A stretch of 64,000 nt of DNA from Actinobacteria bacterium HGW-Actinobacteria-4 (lineage in GTDB: Bacteria > Actinomycetota > Actinomycetes > Actinomycetales > Demequinaceae). The stretch spans positions 1-64,000 of the forward strand of contig PHEW01000006.1 in the NCBI GenBank assembly GCA_002841315.1, read 5' to 3'. Each line of letters starts with the position of its first letter. Position 1 is the stretch's first letter. Positions 21,042 through 21,623 of this stretch are shown here, one piece after another. The position numbers and the translations under genes are program-made. Below the pieces are notes generated by a model that was not told the DNA's origin, did not search any database, and worked only from the letters and a program-made list of their open reading frames with translations.

Positions 21042-21623
21042 ATGACGCGCCTCGACCGCACCGCAACGCACGTGCATGGCACCATGCCCTACGCCTGGCC
21101 ATTTAACGGCGATCTCTCGCCGGCTGCGACCGCCGTCCTGGTGATCGAGCCGCGCGGTGGATCGTGGCCGGCGCAAGGCGCGGAGGAGTGCGCTGCGGCT
21201 GCGGCCGAGGTTGCTCGTGCAGTTCAGTCCGCAGGTGGTGCCGTGGTCTCTGTGATGACGGCACCACCTCGCGGCGAATCCCATCCCACCGCCGCGCTCA
21301 CTCTTCCCCTAGGAAGCGTTTGCGTGGCAGCCCAAGGCATCGATGGCTTCTACGGAAGCTCGCTCGACTTCACCCTCAGGAGCCGCGGAATCGAACGCCT
21401 GATCCTGGTGGGCATCGCCACCGAGACGTCCATCCATTCCACGATGCGCACCGCCAACGATGCAGGCTACGAATGCCTGCTGGTCGCCGACGCGTGCCTC
21501 TCGCTCGACCCCACACTCACGTCTGCCAGCATCTCAATGATCGAGATGTCCGGCGGCATCTTCGGCGCGGTAGGGACGGCAACTTCCGTCGTGGCCGCCT
21601 TCACCTCTAGGAGCAGCTCATGA
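21042..21623 (+). CDS. Isochorismatase-fold pseudoenzyme, paralog of the adjacent biuret hydrolase
   Basis: 193-aa protein clearly related to the next gene: PYAWPFNGDLSPAATAVLVIE matches PYAWPYNGEFSPATTALINID, and HSTMRTANDAGYECLLVADAC matches HTTMRDANDRGYECLLLTDCT. Every recognisable catalytic position has changed. The Asp of the triad (D31 in the paralog) is E36, the Lys (K137) is A97, the nucleophile Cys (C170) is S130 and the conserved Gln (Q210) is S170. A stretch of about 45 residues present in the active paralog (around its TREGHRP-GPCGRILTRGEPGW region) is also missing. The frame is intact and coupled on both sides (2-bp gap to the Bmp gene, ATGA overlap with biuH), so it is unlikely to be a decaying pseudogene. 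A structural, regulatory or substrate-binding partner role is inference. Confidence 0.82.
   Translation: MTRLDRTATHVHGTMPYAWPFNGDLSPAATAVLVIEPRGGSWPAQGAEECAAAAAEVARAVQSAGGAVVSVMTAPPRGESHPTAALTLPLGSVCVAAQGIDGFYGSSLDFTLRSRGIERLILVGIATETSIHSTMRTANDAGYECLLVADACLSLDPTLTSASISMIEMSGGIFGAVGTATSVVAAFTSRSSS

Follow-up and report, generated by a model that had tools for sequence, protein, structure and literature searches.

A conserved non-catalytic paralogue of biuret hydrolase encoded beside its probable partner in actinobacterial biuret operons

Why should a biuret operon keep, immediately ahead of the gene for a complete biuret hydrolase, a second gene for a related protein whose catalytic residues are gone? 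The 64,000-nucleotide stretch of actinobacterial DNA analyzed here (the window) carries such a gene at coordinates 21042..21623 on the plus strand, an open frame encoding a shortened, catalytically dead BiuH paralogue of 193 aa; we refer to this protein and its family as Psi. The initial annotation described four lost catalytic positions, an open frame starting 2 bp after the binding-protein gene and an ATGA overlap with biuH, and all of these are present. The binding-protein gene ends with a TAG at 21039 and the Psi ATG is at 21042, the Psi stop and the biuH start share the ATGA at 21620–21623, and in the family alignment Asp31, Lys137, Cys170 and Gln210 of the window BiuH (Asp36, Lys142, Cys175 and Gln215 in Rhizobium BiuH) correspond to Glu36, Ala97, Ser130 and Ser170 of Psi. 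There is a fifth loss, with Ile100 at the position of BiuH Lys140 (Rhizobium Lys145), variants of which are described as effectively inactive in the excerpted Rhizobium study (PMC5806882). A missing lid-like stretch of 45 residues had also been proposed; the loss is real and includes the mobile active-site loop (BiuH 38–49), but it amounts to 46 residues in the alignment to the window BiuH and is spread over several blocks rather than one run, the others following strand 2 (BiuH 87–98, 102–117, 123–127 and 129) and including helix alpha2.

By profile match and fold Psi is an isochorismatase-like hydrolase homologue (PF00857, 76.5 bits; cut-off 27), but without the Asp-Lys-Cys triad of isochorismatase-like cysteine hydrolases (E36/A97/S130). 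It scores 106.1 bits against NF050097, below the BiuH cut-off of 370, and has Ser170 in place of the trans Gln. It also lacks the features of TrtA, namely a complete triad, the trans Gln202 and clustering with TrtA sequences. Some sources annotate Psi proteins as 'nicotinamidase-related amidase' or 'biuret amidohydrolase'.

The surrounding genes of the cluster are transcribed rightwards on the plus strand. A GntR/FCD regulator gene (15444..16187; PF00392 and PF07729), with homologues in many related clusters, is followed by genes for an ABC ATPase of the sugar/nucleoside type (16187..17731; PF00005 in two stretches), ABC permease 1 (17728..18825; PF02653), ABC permease 2 (18822..19742; PF02653) and, directly upstream of Psi, a BMP/PnrA-type ABC substrate-binding protein (19876..21039; PF02608, 130 bits). 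Downstream of Psi are biuH (21620..22321), encoding a catalytically complete biuret hydrolase of 233 aa (NF050097, 420 bits; cut-off 370) with D31, K137, K140, C170 and Q210 present, and a gene for an AtzF-like allophanate hydrolase of 632 aa (22321..24219; TIGR02713, 689 bits, above cut-off). An alpha/beta hydrolase gene on the minus strand (14621..15310; PF12697) is divergent from the GntR gene; homologues are present in biuH clusters whether or not these contain Psi, and in some Psi loci it sits between the BMP gene and Psi. A promoter scan of 15300–25600 found none, the same interval contains four terminator-like sites (4.5 expected), and no Rfam RNA or riboswitch in the window reaches the gathering threshold.

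The loss of all four catalytic positions in the window copy would fit the local decay of a duplicated biuH, and the homologues bear directly on this reading. Psi has 366 of them, with open frames in relatives across Actinomycetota (the TGA codons in the G1063 and G912 matches are the gene's own stop), and constitutes a monophyletic actinobacterial family; in the tree it is one group (100), which branches with BiuH (92) and apart from TrtA. The dN/dS values of six pairs are 0.21–0.36, indicating purifying selection, an alignment of 50 members has 32 invariant columns, and the fold is predicted confidently, with the N-terminal hairpin and the dimer helix alpha4 kept. Homologues that retain Cys, Lys and Asp had been named as a sign of decay, and among the best 120 of the 366, on which all residue counts for the family were taken, none keeps the triad. 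The family size, the conserved positions and the dN/dS values contradict local decay, to which we assign a negligible probability.

What is conserved differs from what had been expected. The exact E/A/S/S pattern, proposed to be a conserved signature, occurs in just 3 of the 120 and is rejected as such; the constant features are the absence of Lys at the Lys137 position (0/120, with small residues only) and Ser at the Gln210 position (120/120). The nucleophile position varies (46 Ser, 42 Cys, 13 Ala, 13 Gly, 5 Thr, 1 Asn), Asp is kept at the Asp31 position in 7 of the 120, and Asp and Cys are never found together. D101, E128, H132, S133 and S170 are invariant across the same 120 sequences.

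The gene neighborhood is similarly constant. Besides the window locus, the comparison took in 16 from named contigs and 16 from genome samples, 33 different loci in all, with L076, L126 and L127 left out as duplicates of L005, L009 and L012. Isolates that carry Psi include Microbispora amethystogenes NBRC 101907 (L012) and Agromyces tardus SJ-23 (L004). A BMP-type binding-protein gene is upstream of Psi in all 33 and biuH follows directly in 32, the contig of the remaining one (L013) ending after Psi. In evenly drawn samples, with the best eight candidates scored per genome, Psi was found in 5/396 genomes of the order, 7/394 of the class and 7/375 of a second class in the phylum, and biuH adjoined it every time. 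BiuH itself is above cut-off in 8/396 genomes of a phylum sample, three with Psi and five without, and the 20 listed genomes from the genus to which the window belongs gave no Psi match, indicating that the operon is patchy. Many of the sampled genomes are incomplete assemblies.

Psi and BiuH are also found fused. The survey covered 354 proteins (P0001–P0354), from searches of which the fusion search took the best 120 of 3802 matches and one further homologue search the best 120 of 8000; 61 proteins are at least 290 aa long, and 53 of these have at least 80 aa ahead of the BiuH domain. This N-terminal part matches Psi best in 52 of the 53 and resembles the separate proteins, with Ser at the Gln position in 52, Glu128 in 53, and Cys at the nucleophile position in none (Pro in 44). 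The BiuH part of the 61 long proteins is largely intact, with 59 keeping Asp, 57 keeping Lys137, 58 keeping Cys and 58 keeping Gln; sequences that depart from this are broken or variant. One fusion was found in genomic DNA, inside the same operon of an Acidimicrobiales assembly (L016). On a Psi tree with 45 fused members and 157 separate ones, which omits eight short or broken fusion proteins, the fused or separate state changed at least eight times, five of the changes being forced by starred branches; because the search was seeded with a fusion, the fusion count is not a frequency.

Repeated fusion is strong evidence that Psi and BiuH work together, and we infer contact between them from the fusions and from the coupling of the genes. 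An AlphaFold model of one fusion (P0288; a single chain of 434 residues, 46-row alignment) has a pTM of 0.57, so it gives no confident Psi-BiuH packing and does not fix an intramolecular dimer arrangement. With biuH immediately after Psi at 32 of the 33 loci and 52 fusion proteins in addition to L016, a joint function with BiuH is well supported by the genomic evidence, which identifies Psi as a putative conserved non-catalytic partner, and it is probable that the two proteins associate.

Two other roles had been suggested initially alongside that of a non-catalytic subunit, those of a sensor and of a carrier. The partner reading gains from the 366 homologues, the 33 loci, the fusions and the purifying selection; the sensor and carrier readings do not. 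A stand-alone protein binding biuret-type compounds would account for the pocket-like fold that remains and for the invariance of D101, E128 and H132 in the 120 aligned sequences. However, Psi is naturally fused to BiuH in several lineages, D101 is retained in just 23 of the 53 fused members, and the positions of D31, K140 and C170 drift while that of K137 has only small residues and the trans loop is fixed. We consider a sensor or carrier improbable.

A third possibility is a role for Psi in the BMP-type ABC transport system, such as the coupling of uptake to hydrolysis. Genomes with biuH that lack Psi number 33; G1346 (a partial biuH at the end of a contig) and G1408 (a 251-bit match nearer to TrtA than to BiuH) were placed in neither class. 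For 13 of them (G959, G944, G1033, G812, G841, G893, G998, G907, G1047, G863, G1067, G936 and G871) the absence of Psi is that seen among the best eight candidates scored. The presence of a transporter beside biuH was judged in the other 20: it is present in four, absent in 14, and the region is cut off in two. The 14 judgeable loci without the transporter, all of them also without Psi, and the BMP gene upstream in every Psi locus are consistent with service to the transporter. Against it are the four transporter-biuH operons that lack Psi (L134, L140, L166 and L170, in G886, G900, G1296 and G1407, all genomes with TrtA) and the fusions, which join Psi to BiuH and in no case to a transporter part, in searches not designed for that purpose. 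We give this role little credence.

How Psi might act on BiuH is suggested by the known structures. According to the consulted portions of the Rhizobium BiuH paper (PMC5806882), helices alpha2, alpha4 and alpha5 form a tight dimer, each monomer inserts its Gln215 into the active site of its neighbor, and the Gln215Ala substitution increases the KM for biuret by a factor of more than 25. The accessible text on TrtA (PMC7948467) describes Gln202 as likewise contributed by the other subunit and proposes that its position decides between triuret and biuret, with Glu160 and Ile205 as second-shell residues; the origin of this control by the trans Gln is, in the words of its authors, still unknown.

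The best-kept segment of Psi is the loop corresponding to this trans loop, MSGGIFGAVG (Psi 169–178, BiuH 209–218), which contains S170 and in which the mean frequency of the commonest residue over the 120 sequences is 0.99. The next best, at 0.91, is STMRxANDR (Psi 133–141, BiuH 173–181) in the alpha4 interface segment, and the remaining segments are at 0.33–0.82. E128 and I173 are present in all 120 Psi sequences and match the TrtA sequences in this comparison, whereas Psi-linked BiuH proteins have Asp and Val. Psi has thus lost the residues for a substrate of its own and retained the loop that would face a partner, keeping what acts on the partner and shedding its own chemistry. That Psi is a partner subunit acting on BiuH through the trans loop is a reading for which we put belief and doubt at nearly equal weight. 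Against it, one dimer helix of the three, alpha2, is missing from Psi, and the conservation of its alpha5 segment is average (0.67).

The distribution of TrtA bears on what such a subunit would do. A TrtA profile gives 365–403 bits for TrtA and no more than about 295 for BiuH, which keeps the two apart, and all candidates were scored with it in the 33 genomes with Psi (batches of 13, 6, 13 and 1). TrtA is present in none of these and in 28 of the 33 biuH genomes without Psi (25/30, 2/2 and 1/1), although the TrtA frame of G1019, counted as positive, has an in-frame stop; the other five have neither gene. The raw Fisher value of 9e-10 (0/19 versus 27/32) overstates the case since a single family, f106, supplies 22 of the 28 TrtA genomes. 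Counted by family (43 genomes), TrtA is present in 0/10 versus 3/6 (p 0.036), and phylogenetic contrasts, from which G1459, G1460 and 13 named genomes were left out, yield just three independent pairs on starred branches, none in the same direction (p 0.25–1), too few for significance.

More telling than the raw Fisher value is the alternation of Psi and TrtA at the level of operons. In L166 and L170 TrtA lies within the operon, in the order GntR, ABC, BMP, BiuH, AtzF, TrtA. Within genus g537, G1459 has Psi without TrtA and G1296, G1407 and G1460 have TrtA without Psi; the transporter, Psi and BiuH are present in G1459, whose assembly is 88% complete, and G1460 has BiuH, AtzF and TrtA, the upstream part of its locus being cut off. 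The absence of Psi from otherwise similar clusters had been proposed as a mark of decay, and it is indeed absent from L134, L140, L166 and L170, but because their genomes carry TrtA instead we read this as replacement and not as relaxed decay. A transporter of this type is also reported from ammonia-oxidising bacteria, where it accompanies the genes of a complete triuret pathway (PMC12625717, in excerpt). In L088, L089 and L090 TrtA adjoins an allophanate hydrolase gene, with no biuH in the stretch read.

In none of the genomes examined does Psi occur with TrtA, and this suggests a pairing of Psi with BiuH that changes the substrate range of BiuH. The same exclusion would follow if Psi were itself an enzyme, its active site relocated, and had replaced TrtA unaided; the invariance of E128, H132, S133 and S170 in the 120 aligned sequences would fit this. 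However, no nucleophile is conserved at position 130 (S/C/A/G/T/N in separate proteins, Pro in 44 of 53 fusions), the loop and helix over the site are missing, and the constant company of BiuH is left unexplained; an independent activity of Psi is disfavored and seems to us very improbable.

In the mechanism that we favor, Psi is a partner subunit that acts through the trans loop and would descend from a BiuH-like duplicate; its own catalytic residues, the loop and helix over its pocket, and the trans Gln have gone. A mixed dimer would draw the Cys-Asp-Lys chemistry from BiuH and the trans loop from Psi, so that Ser170 (together with Ile173, the residue that TrtA has) replaces Gln210. BiuH-BiuH dimers, with Gln in trans, would continue to hydrolyze biuret, while the more spacious site of BiuH-Psi dimers would accept a longer substrate, most plausibly triuret. 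Subunit exchange would then be a substrate switch standing in for TrtA, with biuH as a single catalytic gene for both substrates, an extension that we rate lower and offer tentatively. We likewise infer the interface used, the change of substrate and triuret as the substrate. Weighing against the trans-loop mechanism, replacement of Gln by Ala in BiuH harms the KM for biuret in the Rhizobium work as excerpted (PMC5806882), and none of the sources consulted, several in partial text, has Ser enabling triuret hydrolysis.

BiuH proteins linked or fused to Psi retain Gln210 in 32 of 32 copies, which requires either that BiuH-BiuH pairing persists or that Psi binds elsewhere. The first is compatible with BiuH-BiuH dimers acting on biuret alongside BiuH-Psi dimers acting on a longer substrate. 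The second would fit Psi as a structural or activating subunit that affects the solubility, stability or allostery of BiuH and not its choice of substrate, bound through the interface between dimers or present as a Psi-Psi dimer of its own. Gene order and fusions fit such a subunit equally, intact BiuH dimers would explain the retained Gln210, and there is precedent in AtzG, an obligate non-catalytic partner without which AtzE is insoluble (PMC6219798, available in part). It leaves unexplained the top conservation of the partner-facing loop, the Ser for Gln in 120 of 120 and the exclusion of TrtA, and many BiuH relatives have no Psi, so that BiuH as such has no need of it. We regard this alternative as rather unlikely.

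Comparison of 32 Psi-linked or fused BiuH copies with 16 from genomes without Psi revealed no Psi-specific signature in BiuH. Tyr200, at the start of alpha5, was considered as a co-varying residue and rejected, being present in 32/32 of the former and also in 6/16 of the latter, where the Tyr-bearing copies are scattered. Three BiuH relatives (L086 8906–9571, P0330 and P0339) combine a complete triad with Ser for the trans Gln (MSGG), and Ser at this position is therefore not foreign to the design; these proteins are possibly relatives of the ancestor of Psi or enzymes with another specificity. P0342 is an altered BiuH relative with both Lys kept, Ala as the nucleophile, Ser at the trans position and the lid partly missing.

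Among characterized proteins, Psi differs from BiuH (NF050097; PDB 6AZN/6AZO/6AZQ and 6XJM) in lacking Asp, Lys, Cys, the trans Gln, alpha2 and the mobile loop. TrtA (PDB 6XIX/6XJE) belongs to the same superfamily branch, shares with Psi the Glu (E160) and Ile (I205) at the second-shell positions, and alternates with it in the genomes examined, but is a complete enzyme with a trans Gln202, and Psi groups with BiuH instead. AtzG is like Psi a small non-catalytic partner encoded beside a hydrolase, AtzE (carboxybiuret amidohydrolase), of a sister nitrogen pathway, and the excerpted report (PMC6219798) describes an obligate AtzG-AtzE heterotetramer thought to derive from GatCA; AtzG is thus no relative of the AtzE fold, whereas Psi is a dead paralogue of its own partner. 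Dead paralogues that assemble with live ones are described, in the partial texts available, for trypanosomatid deoxyhypusine synthase (PMC3663545) and the AdoMetDC prozyme (PMC5201418), with other folds and in other organisms; activation is demonstrated there, whereas Psi is known from sequence alone. Dead paralogues activating live ones are thus established; a dead isochorismatase-fold partner of BiuH is apparently new, as we found no description of one in the titles and opening lines of abstracts among the matches listed, subscription literature being largely outside the search.

If a swap of subunits does change the trans residue, the open question of biuret versus triuret specificity becomes directly testable, and Psi would be a clear example of a pseudoenzyme whose effect on its partner is a retuning and not mere activation. 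The annotation of Psi proteins in genomes would be corrected, and Psi-containing genomes without TrtA might still use triuret, an impurity of urea fertiliser (PMC7948467, in the text at hand).

Seven proteins with C-terminal extensions of BiuH were considered as reversed Psi fusions. One, P0287, is a broken Psi-BiuH fusion, and the other six match TrtA best and not Psi; in these (P0294, P0296, P0299, P0301, P0302 and P0309, one of them from Paenibacillus) an N-terminal BiuH is fused to a C-terminal TrtA-like domain, and they appear from their domain content to be two-step enzymes for triuret. L079 (4557–9769) contains two tandem allophanate-hydrolase-like matches beside its Psi-BiuH cluster, with a GntR-like gene between biuH and them.
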